The notes under the pieces: model-generated
What the model was told of the DNA's origin: nothing
Databases searched by the model: none
What the model saw: only the letters and a program-made list of their open reading frames with translations
Part shown: piece after piece, positions 3,498 to 11,757 of the stretch
Layout: each line of letters starts with the position of its first letter
Numbering within the stretch: position 1 is the first letter of the stretch
Position numbers and translations under genes: made by a program
Source: Gelria sp. Kuro-4
GTDB taxonomy: Bacteria > Bacillota > DTU030 > DUMP01
DNA: 64,000 bases
Direction: 5' to 3'
Assembly (NCBI RefSeq): GCF_019668485.1
Contig: NZ_AP024619.1
Coordinates: forward strand, 1,673,001-1,737,000

Positions 3498-4021
3498 AGC
3501 GGGCGTGTCCGTTAATTCTGGATGAGAACTCTCCAGCATTTTCGCCACAGCAGGCCCGGAATCCAAAAAATTGATCGACAAAGGGGTTTCAGGCTTTAGG
3601 AGAACACCAGGCGGGGAAGGATAGTCATTGCCCTCGACGCAGGGTCGACGCTTTTTTTAGGTAAGCAAATCGTTGGCTACGAGATCGAGAAAAAGCTCTG
3701 TATCTCCGGTCATACAGGGCACATTCAGGGATGTACCGCCTCACCCGGGCCAGTATAGCCCTTCGGCCTGGTGGATAGCAGGGTAGTTAACGTGGGCCGC
3801 GCGGGAATTCTTCTCAGGGGACAAACCGGGGAGGGGCTACCTAGAGTCCCATGAAAAAGTCCTTACAGTAGCATCTTCTCTTACCATGCTGGGCTTCTGC
3901 AACCACGGTTCTTCATCCACTTTTTCTTAATCCTGGCTAATGATCAGTTCCCCGCCTGGAAGCTTAACGTGCTACCCTTCTAAAGTTATAGGCGAGGATC
4001 GATAAGGCTACCCAGCACTTC
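3498..4021 (+). other. Intergenic gap with weak terminator and IS remnant boundary
   Basis: No convincing gene. A weak hairpin at 3518-3536 (five-pair stem with arms CTGGA and TCCAG) followed by a short T-rich stretch may end the aldolase operon. Another short inverted repeat before a run of seven T sits near 3638-3658. The rest has stops in all frames and no recognisable RNA gene. It runs into the truncated transposase, so part of it may be decayed insertion-sequence DNA. Confidence 0.4.
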
Positions 4022-4858
4022 GTGCCCTGGGTTCCGTGGTTTGTCTCGGAGGAGAACTTGGTCACCCTTCAAAACGCCGGCGGGCAGTACATAGCCGGAG
4101 AAAAGTTAAGGAGCGGGAAGGAGACGGCCGAGGCGGCCATCAACCGGGCGGGACGTTACAAGGTGGTGCGCGATAACCTTGAGGTCAAAGAAATCGTCGT
4201 AGGCGAAGGCGAAAGGCGCATCCGGTACGTCCTGGTTCGGAACCCCAAGGAAGTCGAAAAGCAGAAGGTAGAGCGGAAACGGATCATCGCCGAAGTTAAA
4301 GAGCAGCTCAAGCCATCGGCGATCTCAAGGGGAAGCCTCATACCAAGGCCTGCTGAGCTCATCGCCCATCCGGTCTATGGCCGCTACGTCAAGACGGACG
4401 CCAAAGGGCAACCCGTGCTGAACGAGGCCAAGATTAAGCAGGAAGCCAAGCTTGACGGGAAATACCTGCTTCGTACGTCCGATGATACGCTCTCGGCTGA
4501 AGATGTGGCCCTGGGGTACAAGCAGCTTCTTGAGGTGGAGGACGCGTTTCGCAGTCTCAAACAGACGCTGGAGCTGAGACCTGTCTACCATCGTTTGAGC
4601 GACCGAAGTCGTGCCCATGTGCTCCTTTGCTGGCTGGCCCTCTTGATGATTCGGGCAGCGGAGCTGAAGACAGGCCAAACCTGGCGCCACATCCGCGCCG
4701 CGATGGCGCAAATGCACCTGGGTGACTTCCGCAGCCCTGACGGTCGGACCCTGCAACGAACAGAACTTACACTCAGCCAGAAGGCCATCTTCAACGCATT
4801 GGGGGTGGAGGAACCGCCTCTCATCTTCGCTATTGAGCCGGCCAGGAAGCCGGTATAG
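4022..4858 (+). pseudogene. 5'-truncated IS1634/IS4-type transposase
   Basis: About 278 codons match the C-terminal half of IS1634-family DDE transposases (usually 500-600 residues). Residues 7-25 (VSEENLVTLQNAGGQYIAG) resemble the region after the second catalytic Asp. LLEVEDAFRSLKQTLELRPVYHR carries the conserved Glu with the Arg/Lys signature, and AHVLLCWLALLMIRAAELKTG follows. The frame is open only from 3992 (TAG at 3989-3991), so the N-terminal domain and the first catalytic Asp are missing. GTG 4022 has no ribosome site. Probably an inactive remnant. Confidence 0.75.
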
Positions 4859-5065
4859 TAACACGCCACTTTTTCACCGACGCCGCAAACCGGCGCCGGA
4901 TAAGGCTTTGTGCCCTCTTTTTATCTACGCGCTGTAGAACTTGGGTTCGAGGGACCTGGATTAGGAGAGGAAAAGTATTCAGCAGCCAGTTCTCGCCAGT
5001 CCTTACATTTGCGCTTGTAAGCATTATAAGTTTGTTTTTTATTTACGTTGTTGCGGCTTTACAGA
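4859..5065 (+). other. Intergenic region upstream of gntR promoter
   Basis: AT-rich DNA between the transposase remnant and the gntR promoter. It has a short inverted repeat CTTACA/TGTAAG at 5002-5021 with a run of T at 5034-5040, too far from the stem to be a clear terminator. No open frame with a ribosome site was found. Confidence 0.35.
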
Positions 5066-5134
5066 TTGACAGCGTAGACAATTGTTGCTAACATTATGGT
5101 ATACGAAATTAATGTATACAATACCAAAGTATAC
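5066..5134 (+). promoter_or_regulatory. gntR promoter and triple GTATAC operator
   Basis: A sigma-A-type promoter: TTGACA at 5066-5071, a 17-base spacer, TAACAT at 5089-5094. Directly downstream are three copies of the palindrome GTATAC at 5099-5104, 5114-5119 and 5129-5134, each start exactly 15 bases from the last, ending eight bases before the ribosome site. FCD-type GntR regulators are known to bind short TNGTNNNACNA-like palindromes. This array is therefore a probable autoregulatory operator blocking promoter clearance for gntR and the tct operon. The repeat is seen; the binding is inferred. Confidence 0.75.
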
Positions 5135-5154
5135 ACTTCTTGGAGGGTAATGTA

Positions 5155-5850
5155 ATGGAAGTCATCAAGAACAAGACGATGATGGAAGCTGCCTATGACA
5201 CACTCCGGAAAGCGATTGTGACCGGGCATTTTAAACCTGGAGAACAGCTGATCGAGACGGATCTCATCGAATGGCTACAGGTCAGTAGAACTCCTCTTAG
5301 AGAAGCCCTTCGGCGGCTGGAAACAGAGAAGCTGGTGGTTAGCCGTCCCTACAAAGGGGTTTTTGTCAACCAGATTTCCAAGGAATACGCAGAACAGCTG
5401 TACCAAGTCCAGTCTATCCTCGAGGGGCTGGCGGCCAGGCTTGCAACGCAGCACCGGACTCCTGAGTTTCTGGTCGAATTGAGGGAACTGACTCGCCAGG
5501 CCGTGCAGCGCAAACAGATTGGAGATTATGAAGGTATGATTGACAAGACATATGCTTTTCACCAAGCCATCTGGAGACAAAGTAGCAATGAGGTGCTGTT
5601 AGGAGTCCTGGAGACGCTGCAGGCGCAGATTCATCTGCTACGCGGGACGACGTTACTGGACCCGGACCGTAGTGAGGAAAATCTGTACGAGCACGAGAAG
5701 ATCCTAGACGCTCTGTCTGCAGGAAGTTGCGATACTGCGCAGGCCTTAATGTCAGAGCACATCAATAATGCTGCTTGTGCCGCCATAAGAATCTTTCGGC
5801 AAAGACGGGAACAGGAATCCCCTAAGGAGGTGGTCAATGGACAAACTTAA
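5155..5850 (+). CDS. GntR/FadR-type (FCD) transcriptional regulator
   Basis: A 231-residue repressor with an N-terminal winged helix-turn-helix (residues 12-72; recognition segment LQVSRTPLREALRRLE) and a C-terminal FCD ligand domain. The FCD domain carries the usual metal-binding histidine pattern (AFHQAIW, EHEKI, SEHI), suggesting a metal-chelating carboxylate effector. ATG 5155 is chosen because GGAGGG at 5142-5147 sits seven bases before it; an in-frame TTG at 5140 overlaps that site. It lies 36 bases before tctC, so it is the likely local regulator of the carboxylate transport and catabolic operon, acting through the GTATAC array upstream. Confidence 0.88.
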   Translation: MEVIKNKTMMEAAYDTLRKAIVTGHFKPGEQLIETDLIEWLQVSRTPLREALRRLETEKLVVSRPYKGVFVNQISKEYAEQLYQVQSILEGLAARLATQHRTPEFLVELRELTRQAVQRKQIGDYEGMIDKTYAFHQAIWRQSSNEVLLGVLETLQAQIHLLRGTTLLDPDRSEENLYEHEKILDALSAGSCDTAQALMSEHINNAACAAIRIFRQRREQESPKEVVNGQT

Positions 5851-5886: not shown

Positions 5887-6885
5887 ATGGTAGGTGCCAA
5901 GTCTGCAAAGAGGTCCGTCGTGTGGATTCTCTGTGTGTGTACAGCCGTTGCGCTGCTATCAACGGGATGTTCGACCAGTTCAAAACACCAGGCTCCTTCA
6001 GCGCCCGAGTTTCCGACTAAACCCATTACTATCATGACCGGTTACGCTGCCGGTAGCGTAACCGATGTGGGCTTGAGGCTCCTGGTCCCCTATTTAGAGA
6101 AAGAATTGGGACAACCCATCACAGTGGTCAACAAGCCTGGTGGAAGCGGTTGGGTTGCGTGGAGTGAGCTGGCCAAGGCTGCTCCCGACGGTTACACCTT
6201 GGCGGTCGTCAATGTTCCCAACTTCCATACCGGGTACCTAAACCCTGAACTTAAGCGAAGCAATAGCGTTAGGGACTTCGACTTCTTGGCCAACCACGTA
6301 TCAGACCCTAGCGCGATATCAGTTAAGACTGACAGCAAGTTCCAGAACGTAAAAGAGATAGTAGAGTATGCTAAGGCAAATCCCGGCAAACTGTCAGTTA
6401 CCACCACTGGTCCCGCAACTGACGATCACCTCATGGCGCTGGCACTTGAGAACTCGAGTGGTGCAAAATTCAACATCGTCCACTGTAAGGGCGGGAACGA
6501 GAGTGTGGCCCAGGTATTGGGTGGACATATTGATGTCTTGATTGAAAATGTTGGCGGAGTAAGGGTTCCCTTTAAAAATGGAGAGATCAAAATGCTTGGG
6601 GTGGCAACAGAACAGCGCGCAGAGCTTGTGCCTGATGTGCCAACATTGAAAGAGCAGGGCTACAACTTCGTTTCGGTTTCTGCTCGCGGGTTCGCTGCCC
6701 CGAAAGGCCTACCCGAAAACGTGAAGAAAAAGCTCGTCGCGGCACTAGAGAAAGCCATCAAGAATCCAGAACATATTGCCAAGATGAAGGAAATGGGACT
6801 GACGGTCCAGTTCATGGGTCCAGACGAATACACCCAATTTATGTTTACACAAGAAGAAGAGGTCAAGAAGCTGATGCAGTGGTAA
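5887..6885 (+). CDS. tctC: Tripartite tricarboxylate transporter substrate-binding lipoprotein
   Basis: A 332-residue TctC/Bug-family binding protein. Residues 1-27 are a lipoprotein signal with a basic start, a hydrophobic core and an LSTGC lipobox, so Cys28 is probably lipidated and the protein anchored outside the membrane. Bug-family features include FPTKPITIMTGYAAGSVTD near the mature start, PDGYTLAVVN, and FAAPKGLPENVKKKL near the end. It should capture a carboxylate and deliver it to TctA/TctB. The substrate is unknown; the downstream enzymes suggest a hydroxy- or oxo-acid. The ribosome site AAAGGGG precedes ATG 5887. Confidence 0.9.
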   Translation: MVGAKSAKRSVVWILCVCTAVALLSTGCSTSSKHQAPSAPEFPTKPITIMTGYAAGSVTDVGLRLLVPYLEKELGQPITVVNKPGGSGWVAWSELAKAAPDGYTLAVVNVPNFHTGYLNPELKRSNSVRDFDFLANHVSDPSAISVKTDSKFQNVKEIVEYAKANPGKLSVTTTGPATDDHLMALALENSSGAKFNIVHCKGGNESVAQVLGGHIDVLIENVGGVRVPFKNGEIKMLGVATEQRAELVPDVPTLKEQGYNFVSVSARGFAAPKGLPENVKKKLVAALEKAIKNPEHIAKMKEMGLTVQFMGPDEYTQFMFTQEEEVKKLMQW

Positions 6886-6897
6886 GAACGGAGGAAC

Positions 6898-6922
6898 GGG
6901 GGGCGCCAACATTGGGCCCCCC
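6898..6922 (+). promoter_or_regulatory. Intercistronic GC hairpin between tctC and tctB
   Basis: A perfect seven-pair stem (GGGGGGC at 6898-6904 with GCCCCCC at 6916-6922) and an 11-base loop lie between the tctC stop and the tctB ribosome site. No T-tract follows, so it is not a standard terminator. Such hairpins after binding-protein genes typically protect the upstream mRNA and lower downstream expression, giving more binding protein than membrane subunit. Confidence 0.6.
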
Positions 6923-6953
6923 ACTCTCGAGAAGCCAAGGGGGTGCAACCACT

Positions 6954-7391
6954 ATGCCCAAGTCTCATGACAGAATAATAGCTCTTCTACTTCTGGTGCT
7001 GAGTCTTTTGGGGCTGCTTCAAACCAAGAACTTCCCGGAGAGAGTTGGGTACTTCCCTGCCGCGGTGCTGGCCGTGCTGCTAGTTTTATCAGTCCTCTTG
7101 TTCTTCGGTACCCTGCGAAAGGACGAAAACAAACAAGCGCAAACGAACCAGGTTATTACGACCAAGGCTATGTTTACATTCGCCGTCTCAGTCCTCTGTG
7201 TTTTATTGATCAACGTTGTAGGGCTTTATATCGCCTCAGGCTTGCTTATTGCAGTCTTAGCATGGTATTTTCGCGGCATCCAGCCGAAGTCTGTGCTGTT
7301 GGCCATTATCGTATTTAACCTGTTCACGTATTTGCTGTTCAGCGTACAGCTTCAAGTGCCTATTCCCGCAGGCATTTTGTTCAGAAGGTGA
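6954..7391 (+). CDS. tctB: Tripartite tricarboxylate transporter, small membrane subunit TctB
   Basis: A 145-residue hydrophobic protein with about four membrane segments (near residues 8-22, 27-49, 62-95 as a pair, and 105-130). This is the size and layout of TctB subunits. The start is ATG 6954, with an AAGGGGGTG ribosome site about ten bases upstream; an earlier in-frame GTG overlaps the end of tctC but would add a non-conserved, charged lead. It pairs with TctA in the membrane. Its sequence diverges strongly in this family, so the call rests on topology and position between tctC and tctA. Confidence 0.82.
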   Translation: MPKSHDRIIALLLLVLSLLGLLQTKNFPERVGYFPAAVLAVLLVLSVLLFFGTLRKDENKQAQTNQVITTKAMFTFAVSVLCVLLINVVGLYIASGLLIAVLAWYFRGIQPKSVLLAIIVFNLFTYLLFSVQLQVPIPAGILFRR

Positions 7392-7401
7392 GGGTTAGTT
7401 G

Positions 7402-8889
7402 ATGGCTGATATCCTCGCGCAGACATTCCAAGTCGAAGTCCTGGCCAGTACCATGCTGGGTATTTTTGCTGGCATGCTAGTTGGGGCAATCCCAGGTTTG
7501 ACGGCTACAATGGCTGTGGCGCTCTTGATTCCGGTCACCTTTGGGATGAGCGGCGCGGCGGCTTTGATCCTCTTGGGAACCATTTACACAGCAGCGACTT
7601 ACGGCGGGAGCTTTTCTGCGATCTTATTTCATACCCCTGGTACACCTAGCTCAGCGGCAACCTGTCTCGATGGTTACGAAATGACCAGGAAAGGCGAAGC
7701 CGGTAAAGCCCTAACAATTTCTACCATTAGCTCTGCGCTAGGTGGCTTGGTTGGGGTCTGCGCATTGCTGTTAATTGCTCCACCTCTATCACTTATCTCA
7801 CTCAAGTTTGGCCCACTCGAGTACTTCCTGTTGGCTGTCTTTGGGTTAAGCATTATTGGCGGGTTAGCTTCTAATAACCTCGTAAAGGGACTAATTGCTG
7901 GATTGCTAGGTTTGGCTTTAAGTACGATTGGCCTTGACCCAATGGCGGCATTTCCACGCTTTACTTTTGGCCTTATCAACCTAGAGTCTGGGATTCCGTT
8001 GGTTCCGGCGCTGATTGGGATGTTTTCGGTATCCCAAGCCATGATTTTGGCTGAGACCGGGAACGTGGTTCAGGTGAACCCAACCGCCAAGGCTATCAAA
8101 ATTACCCTGCCGACATGGCAGGAAATGAAATGCATCGCCCCGATCATCGGCTACTGCTCATTAATAGGCACCTTTATAGGGATACTCCCGGGTGCGGGCG
8201 GTGACGTTGCGACCTGGGTCAGCTACAACGAGGCGCGCCGGATATCCAAGCATCCGGAAAAGTTTGGAACAGGGATAGTTGAAGGGATAGCTGCTTCTGA
8301 ATCAGCTAACAACGCGGTTTGTGCATCTGCTATGATTCCACTACTAACACTGGGTATCCCAGGGAGCAACGTCACAGCTGTGATGCTCGGCGGCCTGCTC
8401 ATCCACGGTCTGGTTCCAGGAAGAGACCTCTTCTCGGTTCAGGCGACGACAACCTACGCGATCATTGTGGGGCTGTTCCTGGCCAATATACTCATGGGAG
8501 TAATCGGGCTACTCATTGCACCCTATGTCCAGCGCCTGGCTCGAATTCCGTACCAGATCTTGGCGTCGACCATCATCTTGTTTGGCGTGGTAGGTTCCTT
8601 TGCCATCAACAACAACTTTGCCGATGTTTACCTTATGATGATCTTCGGCCTGTTTGGCTACCTCATGAGGCGCTATGACTTCCCGGTAGCGGCCACAATT
8701 CTCGGGCTGATTCTTGGTCCCATGGCTGAGAACGGCCTAAGACAAGCAATGGTCATTTCAAGTGGCAATCTGCTCGTGATGCTGCTGCGTCGCCCCATCT
8801 CACTCGTTATTGTGCTGGTAACTCTTTTGTCGATATTATGGCCGGTGCTGTCCAAGAGAATGGCTGGCTCCAAACCTGCCCACGCGTAA
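7402..8889 (+). CDS. tctA: Tripartite tricarboxylate transporter, large permease TctA
   Basis: A 495-residue integral membrane protein with about ten to twelve hydrophobic segments and both TctA hallmarks: GILPGAGGDVATWVSYNEARR near residue 255 and GIAASESANNAVCASAMIPLLTLGIPGS near 297. It forms the cation-coupled translocation channel fed by the TctC lipoprotein. The start is ATG 7402 with AGGTGAGG upstream; the preceding TTG is less likely. It begins ten bases after tctB and is followed, after a 112-base gap, by the PanB-like gene, consistent with one catabolic operon. Confidence 0.92.
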   Translation: MADILAQTFQVEVLASTMLGIFAGMLVGAIPGLTATMAVALLIPVTFGMSGAAALILLGTIYTAATYGGSFSAILFHTPGTPSSAATCLDGYEMTRKGEAGKALTISTISSALGGLVGVCALLLIAPPLSLISLKFGPLEYFLLAVFGLSIIGGLASNNLVKGLIAGLLGLALSTIGLDPMAAFPRFTFGLINLESGIPLVPALIGMFSVSQAMILAETGNVVQVNPTAKAIKITLPTWQEMKCIAPIIGYCSLIGTFIGILPGAGGDVATWVSYNEARRISKHPEKFGTGIVEGIAASESANNAVCASAMIPLLTLGIPGSNVTAVMLGGLLIHGLVPGRDLFSVQATTTYAIIVGLFLANILMGVIGLLIAPYVQRLARIPYQILASTIILFGVVGSFAINNNFADVYLMMIFGLFGYLMRRYDFPVAATILGLILGPMAENGLRQAMVISSGNLLVMLLRRPISLVIVLVTLLSILWPVLSKRMAGSKPAHA

Positions 8890-9001: not shown

Positions 9002-9856
9002 ATGCCGAGGCAAAAGCGAACCATCCAGTACCTCTTTGAAAAGAAAGAGAAAGGGGAAAAAATGCCGCGGACGGCTCTCTATGACTACCCGATGGCTGTG
9101 CTAGCCGAACTGGCCGGGATCGACATCATCAATGTTGGTGATTCCATCGCTATGGTGACGTTTGGCTACAACAGCACCTTGCCAGCGAATCTGGACGTTA
9201 TGGTGGAGCATGCCAAGGCCGTGCGTAAAGGTGCCCCCACCGCCTTTATCATGGGCGATATGCCTTTCCTGTCTTACCAGGCGTCAATTCCAGAGGCCAT
9301 CAGGAACGCTGGCAGGTACTTGAGGGAAGCGGACATGGATGCAGTCAAAGTTGAAGGAGGCACTGAGGTTGTTCCCGTAATAAAGGCACTGACCGATGCA
9401 GGCATTCCGGTCATTGCCCACACGGGTCTTACTCCCCAGAGCATTAAATCCATCGGGGGCTACAAAACCCAGGGGCGTGATGCCCAGGCGGCGCTGAAGC
9501 TGATCCACGAGGTCAAAGCCCTAGAGGACGCCGGCGCCGTGGCGGTAGTCATTGAAAGCGTTCCGAGCGAAGTCGGGAAAATCATCTACGAGCGGACTCG
9601 GATCCCCATTTTCGGGACCGGGATTGGCCCGTACACCGACAGCCCCATGATCAATGCCTACGACCTGCTCGGCTTTTTCGACCGCGTCCCCCGCTTTGCC
9701 AAACGGTATGCAAATGTAAAGGAAGTCATAGTAGATGCTTTCAAGAACTTCGTCGATGATGTCGTTACTGGCCAGTATCCTGGTGAAGAGCACTGCTACC
9801 ACATGATACCCGGTGAAGAAGAGAAGCTCTACAACCTGATCGAAACACAAAACTAG
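9002..9856 (+). CDS. PanB-like ketopantoate hydroxymethyltransferase family aldolase
   Basis: A 284-residue member of the PanB/PEP-mutase barrel family. Catalytic positions of PanB are present: Asp47-Ser48 in VGDS, Asp86 in GDMPF, Lys116 in AVKVEGG, Glu185 in VVIESVP, plus the family stretch HTGLTPQSIKSIGGYKTQGR. PanB moves a hydroxymethyl group from 5,10-methylene-THF to 2-oxoisovalerate, in principle reversibly. The usual GAGPDCDGQ-like segment is replaced here by GTGIGPYTDSP, suggesting altered specificity. No panC or panD is near; it sits between a carboxylate transporter and two catabolic enzymes, so a retro-aldol role is inferred. ATG 9002 follows AAAGGAG. Confidence 0.8.
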   Translation: MPRQKRTIQYLFEKKEKGEKMPRTALYDYPMAVLAELAGIDIINVGDSIAMVTFGYNSTLPANLDVMVEHAKAVRKGAPTAFIMGDMPFLSYQASIPEAIRNAGRYLREADMDAVKVEGGTEVVPVIKALTDAGIPVIAHTGLTPQSIKSIGGYKTQGRDAQAALKLIHEVKALEDAGAVAVVIESVPSEVGKIIYERTRIPIFGTGIGPYTDSPMINAYDLLGFFDRVPRFAKRYANVKEVIVDAFKNFVDDVVTGQYPGEEHCYHMIPGEEEKLYNLIETQN

Positions 9857-9869
9857 TGAGGTGGAGAAC

Positions 9870-10943
9870 TTGGCGCTTGTTCGCGTCCAGAGCAAAGACC
9901 TGCAGCACCTAGCGGAGGAAATTCTCCAGAGCGTTGGTGTCCCGGAAGAGGATGCCCACATAATAAGCAGCTGCCTGATTGAGGCAGACCTAAGAGGCGT
10001 TCAAACGCACGGGATGTTCCATTTACCGAAATATGTCGCAAGGATTCAAGTCGGGTCCTTGAAGCCTGTAACGCCGGTAACAACCGTGGCGGAGACTGCG
10101 AACATCGCTGTCTTAGATGGTGGTGGAGGTTTTGGTCATGTCAGCGGCTATCGCGCCATGAAACTCGCAATGGCCAAGGCGAAGCAGGGCGGAATAGCCA
10201 TGGTTTTGGTAAGGAACAGCAATCATTTTGGCATGACAGCCTTTTATGCTATGCTCGCCCTCAGCGAGAACCAGATCGGGATGGCAATGACTAATGCTTC
10301 TCCTACAATAGCGCCAACCGGAGGTGTCTCTCCCCTGTTGGGCAATAACCCCTTTGCCATTGCCGTTCCTGCTGGCCAAAGACCGGCCCCAGTCCTAGAT
10401 GTAGCGCTAAGCGCCTCTAGCCTAAGCAAAATCAAACAGGCGGCAGAGAAAGGCATTCCCATACCGCTGGGCTGGGCGACCGATCCAGAAGGTGAAGAGA
10501 CAACTGATGCTCAAAAGGCGGTTACTGGACTTCTTCTGCCCATTGGGGGCTACAAAGGTTACGGTATGTCTTTTATGATCGACGTGCTCTGCGGTGTTTT
10601 ATCAGGAGCCGCATTTGGCCCATTCGTGGGTAAACATCTGCAGCAACCGAATCAAAAGGCCAACCCGCAGAACCTAGGGCACACATTTGTGGCGATTGAT
10701 GTGAGTAAGTTCATGGGCGTAGACCTGTTCAAGGCTAGGGTGGACCAGTACATCGATACCCTCAAAGCTTCCAAGCTAGGTAAGAGCGCCCAGACAATTT
10801 ACCTTCCAGGTGAGAAAGAGTACTGGACGAAGACGGACTATCTCAAGAATGGCATTCGCATTGAAGAGGCTATTGTGAACGAGGTCGTGGCTTTGGCCAA
10901 TAGTCTTGGGCTGGCCCCGCACCTTAACGTGGCTCTGGAATAA
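9870..10943 (+). CDS. Ldh2/malate dehydrogenase-family NAD(P) oxidoreductase
   Basis: A roughly 357-residue member of the Ldh2 (YlbC/ComC/DlgD) family, which uses a fold distinct from ordinary malate dehydrogenases to oxidise 2-hydroxyacids such as malate, lactate, ureidoglycolate, sulfolactate or diketogulonate. The N-terminal RGVQTHG and the NSNHFG motif with the catalytic His (about residue 119) are present, as is the GGYKGYG segment near residue 225. TTG 9870 is preferred because AGGTGGAG lies just before it; GTG 9861 is the alternative. It starts 14 bases after the PanB-like gene. Substrate unknown. Confidence 0.85.
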   Translation: MALVRVQSKDLQHLAEEILQSVGVPEEDAHIISSCLIEADLRGVQTHGMFHLPKYVARIQVGSLKPVTPVTTVAETANIAVLDGGGGFGHVSGYRAMKLAMAKAKQGGIAMVLVRNSNHFGMTAFYAMLALSENQIGMAMTNASPTIAPTGGVSPLLGNNPFAIAVPAGQRPAPVLDVALSASSLSKIKQAAEKGIPIPLGWATDPEGEETTDAQKAVTGLLLPIGGYKGYGMSFMIDVLCGVLSGAAFGPFVGKHLQQPNQKANPQNLGHTFVAIDVSKFMGVDLFKARVDQYIDTLKASKLGKSAQTIYLPGEKEYWTKTDYLKNGIRIEEAIVNEVVALANSLGLAPHLNVALE

Positions 10944-10983
10944 ACCTTGCACCCCGTGCGGTAAGGAAAAGGAGGCGATCAGA

Positions 10984-11757
10984 TTGATCGGGGCAGCAGA
11001 GTGGGAGAAGTACGAACACCGGCTTGCTGGAGTAGTTCCCAAAGAGAGGTTCGCTCGCTTGAGTTTTCCGCGCCCGAGACCCGAGGTCTTGAGTGTCCTT
11101 AAAGGCATAGAGGATCCGACTCCAACGGTTTCTGACATACTCGACCAATTAGGTATCGCAGGTACTGTTCCGGCAACAATCCTGCATCCAATTTGCGCCG
11201 GCAAAGTTGTGGTTGGCCCGGCTTTAACCATCCGCTATGTTGCAGAGCCACTGGTACCGCGGCAGGCGATGCTCAATTCCGCTAAGGCCCAGCTCGGTGA
11301 CAAAGATGCGTATGCAATTGCCGAACCGGGCGATGTGGTGGTCTTTGATAACAGCGGCCGAGAAGACATTTCTACGATGGGAGGCCTTTCCACGCACTAT
11401 GCCCTGAAAGCTGGGGTTGCTGGCTGTATTGTTGATGGTGGGGTCCGGGATGTTGGACTGATGCGCTCAGTTGGTTTCGGCGTCTGGAGCCGGGGTATAA
11501 CTCCCATTACAGGTAAACTGCGGGTTGCGACATTGGAAATCAACGGACCGGTACAGTGTGCCGACGTGTCGGTGAAGCCAGGCGACCTAGTGGTAGCTGA
11601 TGACAACGGCGTATGCTTTATCCCTGCAGAACGTTTAGATGAGGTAGTGGCTATGGTATTAGAGGCTGCCAAGACGGAAGAGATGTTGATGCAGGCCATT
11701 TCCGGAGGAGGCTCGATGGACAATCTAAGGAGCATTCTACCGCCAGAGAAATGGTAA
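10984..11757 (+). CDS. RraA-like protein (HMG aldolase / oxaloacetate decarboxylase family)
   Basis: A 257-residue RraA-fold protein. The family signature is GCIVDGGVRDVG with Asp151, Arg155 and Asp156, preceded by the GG(x)STHYALKAG loop. In 4-hydroxy-4-methyl-2-oxoglutarate aldolases the Arg-Asp pair binds substrate and the divalent metal, which makes catalysis more likely than RNase E inhibition in this organism. TTG 10984 is chosen from AAGGAGG at 10969-10975, eight bases upstream. Last gene of the carboxylate operon. It could cleave a branched hydroxy-oxo-diacid to pyruvate plus another oxoacid, or decarboxylate oxaloacetate. Confidence 0.83.
   Translation: MIGAAEWEKYEHRLAGVVPKERFARLSFPRPRPEVLSVLKGIEDPTPTVSDILDQLGIAGTVPATILHPICAGKVVVGPALTIRYVAEPLVPRQAMLNSAKAQLGDKDAYAIAEPGDVVVFDNSGREDISTMGGLSTHYALKAGVAGCIVDGGVRDVGLMRSVGFGVWSRGITPITGKLRVATLEINGPVQCADVSVKPGDLVVADDNGVCFIPAERLDEVVAMVLEAAKTEEMLMQAISGGGSMDNLRSILPPEKW

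Follow-up and report, generated by a model that had tools for sequence, protein, structure and literature searches.

FadR-subfamily operators follow the consensus NyGT-Nx-ACNy, and in several groups the site takes the form GT-N2-AC (PMC4494728). For Atu1419 of Agrobacterium fabrum, a GntR/FCD regulator of the VanR group, the complex has been solved on ATGTATACAT, a site with a GTATAC core (PDB 6z74/6za0/6za3/6za7/6zab; PMC7797058). In that complex a G is read by Arg45 and an A by Thr46, and changing this G plus its C partner abolished binding (PMC7797058). E. coli NanR binds (GGTATA)3 as an array of three dimers, with a cooperativity that needs a 32-residue N-terminal extension (PMC8012715).

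Here, we analyzed a 64,000-nucleotide stretch of the Gelria sp. Kuro-4 genome (the window), in which three GTATAC palindromes precede the gntR gene of a carboxylate operon. The relevant features, in window coordinates, are as follows.

5066..5094, + strand: sigma-70-type promoter, TTGACA-17-TAACAT, with 10/12 consensus matches
5099..5104, no strand: GTATAC site 1, context TGGTATACGA, overlapping the expected transcription start
5114..5119, no strand: GTATAC site 2, context ATGTATACAA, of the three sites the nearest to the Atu1419 site
5129..5134, no strand: GTATAC site 3, context AAGTATACAC
5142..5147, + strand: ribosome site GGAGGG, read directly, 5' of the ATG at 5155
5155..5850, + strand: gntR, open reading frame for a GntR/FCD regulator of 231 aa from the ATG (Pfam GntR and FCD)
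5887..8889, + strand: tctC, tctB and tctA, tripartite carboxylate transporter (Pfam TctC, TctB, TctA)
9002..11757, + strand: genes for PanB-like, malate/sulfolactate-dehydrogenase-like (Ldh_2) and RraA-like enzymes, 3' of tctCBA

The first-pass annotation of this DNA had reported identical hexamers starting at 5099, 5114 and 5129, between a TTGACA/TAACAT promoter and the gntR ribosome site, and both the three starts and this placement were confirmed in the sequence. The promoter boxes occupy 5066-5071 and 5089-5094, with a 17-base spacer between them and a TG preceding the -10. Because the -10 ends at 5094, transcription is expected to start near 5101, so that site 1 would cover the start while sites 2 and 3 would lie in the early transcribed region. 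The window holds nine GTATAC copies against 2.75 expected. When the 295-base intergenic region (4860-5154) was shuffled 20,000 times with dinucleotides preserved, at least three copies arose in two shuffles, and equally spaced triples in none. The triplet before gntR is not chance. Furthermore, the three 15-mers of the array have only the hexamer in common and their spacers differ, hence the array is not a recently duplicated minisatellite or tandem duplication; a hexamer that is shared between spacers that are not argues for selected sites. The outer bases also differ among sites 1 to 3.

A DDE transposase remnant (4022-4858) lies directly upstream of the promoter region of the regulator, and no full second copy of it was found in the genome. 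Its end lies approximately 240 bases upstream of the array, and the low GC content of the array region (43%, versus 62% for the window) favors GTATAC; the array might thus be a product of chance or debris of the neighboring insertion sequence. We regard this as very improbable, since such an array hardly ever arises when the region is shuffled with its composition unchanged and since GTATAC recurs before other FCD genes. An insertion-sequence origin in particular was ruled out by the lack of a second copy of the array region in the genome, where only positions 3838-4036 find matches elsewhere, at 74-77% identity.

The gntR product has an N-terminal GntR winged helix and a C-terminal FCD domain, both above the Pfam cut-off (GntR 4.2e-18, FCD 1.1e-25), which places it in the GntR/FCD family (FadR subfamily). 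An alternative start, TTG at 5140, would add five residues; the Pfam GntR domain begins at residue 16 of this 236-aa form, or at about residue 11 of the 231-aa form. All three sites read GT-AT-AC and so conform to the palindromic NyGT-Nx-ACNy pattern of FadR-subfamily operators, sites 1 and 2 each matching TKGTATACMA at 9/10 positions. The regulator as a whole bears little similarity to Atu1419 (phmmer E=1e-10), and it has Gln31 in place of Arg31. Nevertheless, residues 29-67 align to Atu1419 (6z74) without a gap, with Glu34, Ser44, Arg45, Thr46 and Arg49 identical, and because the contact residues are identical the regulator is predicted to read GTATAC directly. In the FCD domain, mapped by spacing rather than by structure, His 136, 180 and 202 are kept at the likely metal site, and Thr132 sits where Atu1419 has Asn.

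Genome-level statistics, built on pattern searches and fetched stretches, extend this picture to the other FCD genes. The Gelria genome gave 15 FCD matches, one of them a fragment, leaving 14 genes. GTATAC occurs within 150 bp upstream of five of these 14, versus 1/122 other genes of the fetched stretches (p=3e-5), or 1/47 when only intergenic upstreams are counted (p=0.002), with paralogous FCD genes treated as independent. The five are the present gntR and the FCD genes of loci L021, L024, L026 and L028, of which that in L026 heads a nitrilase-type and TRAP-transporter cluster and that in L028 a transketolase cluster. The exact hexamer is missing before the remaining nine, hence not every FCD protein uses GTATAC. 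Two GTATAC copies separated by 2-30 bases are found at just five places in the 2.88 Mb genome, and two more of these close pairs are also at FCD genes. The L021 regulator (L100:5356-6164) has one GTATAC upstream, and a pair, CTGTATACAAG...CTTGTATACG, with copies 32 apart, lies before the next gene, which encodes a Gate-domain membrane protein and is followed by genes for a carbamoyltransferase and an apparent carbamate kinase. The sequence suggests that this regulator has sites both for its own control and for control of a target.

These paralogues also bear on who owns the sites before gntR. With GTATAC upstream of at least four other FCD genes, cross-talk is possible, and in two other genomes GTATAC pairs with a 15-base step precede MarR genes; the sites could therefore belong to a different FCD paralogue or to, for example, a MarR-type protein, the local gntR being only a target. 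We consider such an owner quite unlikely, given that the adjacent gene itself encodes an FCD regulator in which all base-reading residues are conserved, and that autoregulation is usual in the GntR/FCD family.

Relatives were sampled through 100 tctA neighborhoods of the phylum, which contain 38 FCD genes whose starts were set by a rule and could be wrong by some codons. GTATAC lies within 200 bp upstream of 8/38 of these genes versus 25/1031 others (p=9e-6, in sets that include paralogues and related genomes, with related genes treated as independent). With near-duplicates removed, GTATCC (5.6e-6) and GTATAC (5.7e-6) ranked above all other hexamers in enrichment before these FCD genes, at approximately 0.012 after correction for all hexamers. 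The motif thus recurs before FCD genes over other genes both in the Gelria genome and in relatives, as would be expected of a FadR-subfamily operator, and GTATAC/GTATCC is suggested as a core common to the upstream regions of FCD genes in the phylum, which helps to predict their regulons.

No orthologue of the regulator above approximately 41% identity was found in 399 genomes of the phylum: the best matches, at 36-41%, nearly all belong to one different conserved subgroup, and a search over genome contigs returned distant matches of 24-26% only. None of the 36 closest FCD relatives, which form this subgroup, has GTATAC upstream; their genes are probably read from the promoter of an upstream gene. 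PanB-like relatives (52-56% identity) have unrelated neighborhoods with no FCD gene.

The operator hypothesis that the first-pass annotation had put forward for the adjacent GntR/FCD regulator is therefore supported by the shuffle statistics, the paralogues, the relatives and the homologous solved complex. Collectively, these comparisons of sequence make the GntR/FCD-operator reading of the array well supported, with the three GTATAC very probably being ordinary binding sites of the adjacent repressor.

The special weight that had been placed on the 15-base period, by contrast, was unsupported, since FCD arrays occur with steps of 7, 11, 19, 28 and 32. At FCD loci of the Gelria genome the steps are 19 (L028), 32 (the L021 target) and 11 (degenerate copies in L026); close GTATAC pairs near tctA of relatives have a step of 7 (L164 and L203) or 28 (L144), and none has 15. 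The geometry had been correctly stated: a 15-base step is not a whole helical turn, and neighboring sites face different sides of the DNA. At 10.5 bp per turn, the computed rotation is 154 degrees per step, with sites 1 and 3 approximately 51 degrees apart. Several GntR/FCD dimers could be recruited, as the first-pass annotation had proposed.

It is conceivable that this phase is itself functional, with the spacing selected and three dimers cooperating on alternating DNA faces in a fixed array like that of NanR, which gives a precedent for a three-dimer FCD array (PMC8012715); the exact equal spacing, absent from all the shuffles, points the same way. We nonetheless think this unlikely. None of the other 13 FCD genes in the Gelria genome and none of the 38 tct-neighborhood FCD genes has the 15-base step, so the same spacing does not define a conserved class of FCD operators. 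GTATAC pairs at this step occur nowhere else in the 2.88 Mb genome, where the only two are the overlapping pairs of the array. Across the phylum they were found in 48/399 genomes versus approximately 70 for the reversed control (counted from the table), hence without excess, and at 29 checked loci with such a pair no FCD gene lay within 1.5 kb; the 15-base pair was therefore ruled out as a phylum-wide marker. In addition, the GntR domain begins so close to the ATG that the extension behind NanR cooperativity is missing, and strong cooperativity is consequently not predicted. Cooperation of three dimers at a 1.43-turn phase, in which each dimer would face nearly away from the one before it and the NanR-type extension would be lacking, is unlikely; if true, this geometry would be new for cooperative binding at palindromic FCD sites. 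The regular 15-base spacing is probably peculiar to this promoter rather than a required geometry.

The same step was seen in other settings. At two of the 29 checked loci, from different genera of the phylum (L083:1501-1544 and L086:1501-1548), the 15-base GTATAC pair is of the CAGTATACTGA type and lies downstream of a -10-like box, just before a MarR-family gene starts. Such a pair is likely an operator for autoregulation by MarR that shares the 15-base step. In another genome, a long open reading frame contains several GTATAC at 15-base intervals (L073:1501-1914), apparently as a coding repeat.

Returning to autoregulation by the adjacent repressor, we consider it highly likely that the three GTATAC form the operator of gntR downstream of its promoter, bound by up to three dimers and relieved by a carboxylate. 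From the presence and position of the sites, the motif enrichment before FCD genes and the conserved DNA-contact residues, we infer binding, repression, ligand and number of dimers as follows. Regulator dimers, one per palindrome, would bind at about +1, +16 and +31, immediately downstream of the -10, and would block initiation or early elongation; occupancy of the sites at the same time is geometrically plausible at the rotations computed above, much as NanR occupies its tight array (PMC8012715). The PanB-like, Ldh_2 and RraA-like genes probably share an operon with gntR-tctCBA, as judged from their spacing. Transcription of gntR-tctCBA and these enzyme genes would remain repressed until the FCD domain binds the carboxylate carried by Tct, or its product, which would weaken DNA binding. 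Multiple sites might provide a higher local affinity or a steeper response. The uncharacterized regulator of this Tct carboxylate operon is thereby assigned a concrete predicted operator.

In comparison with known systems, the locus resembles that of Atu1419 in its FCD regulator, its GTATAC core and its predicted autoregulation through promoter sites. Atu1419, however, has one palindrome per site, with sites 190 or 109 bp apart that are bridged by a tetramer, whereas three palindromes here fall within 36 bp downstream of the -10. The palindromic TKGT/ACMA boxes are shared with FadR-subfamily operators, in which extra boxes near the main sites are common; those are weaker half-sites 7-12 nt from the site center (PMC4494728), unlike the full palindromes at 15 nt found here. 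As with NanR, three evenly arranged sites precede an FCD-regulated carboxylate operon; the NanR sites are tightly spaced direct repeats, whereas the present array consists of palindromes, and as a naturally occurring triplet it can be used to test how DNA is shared among FCD dimers.
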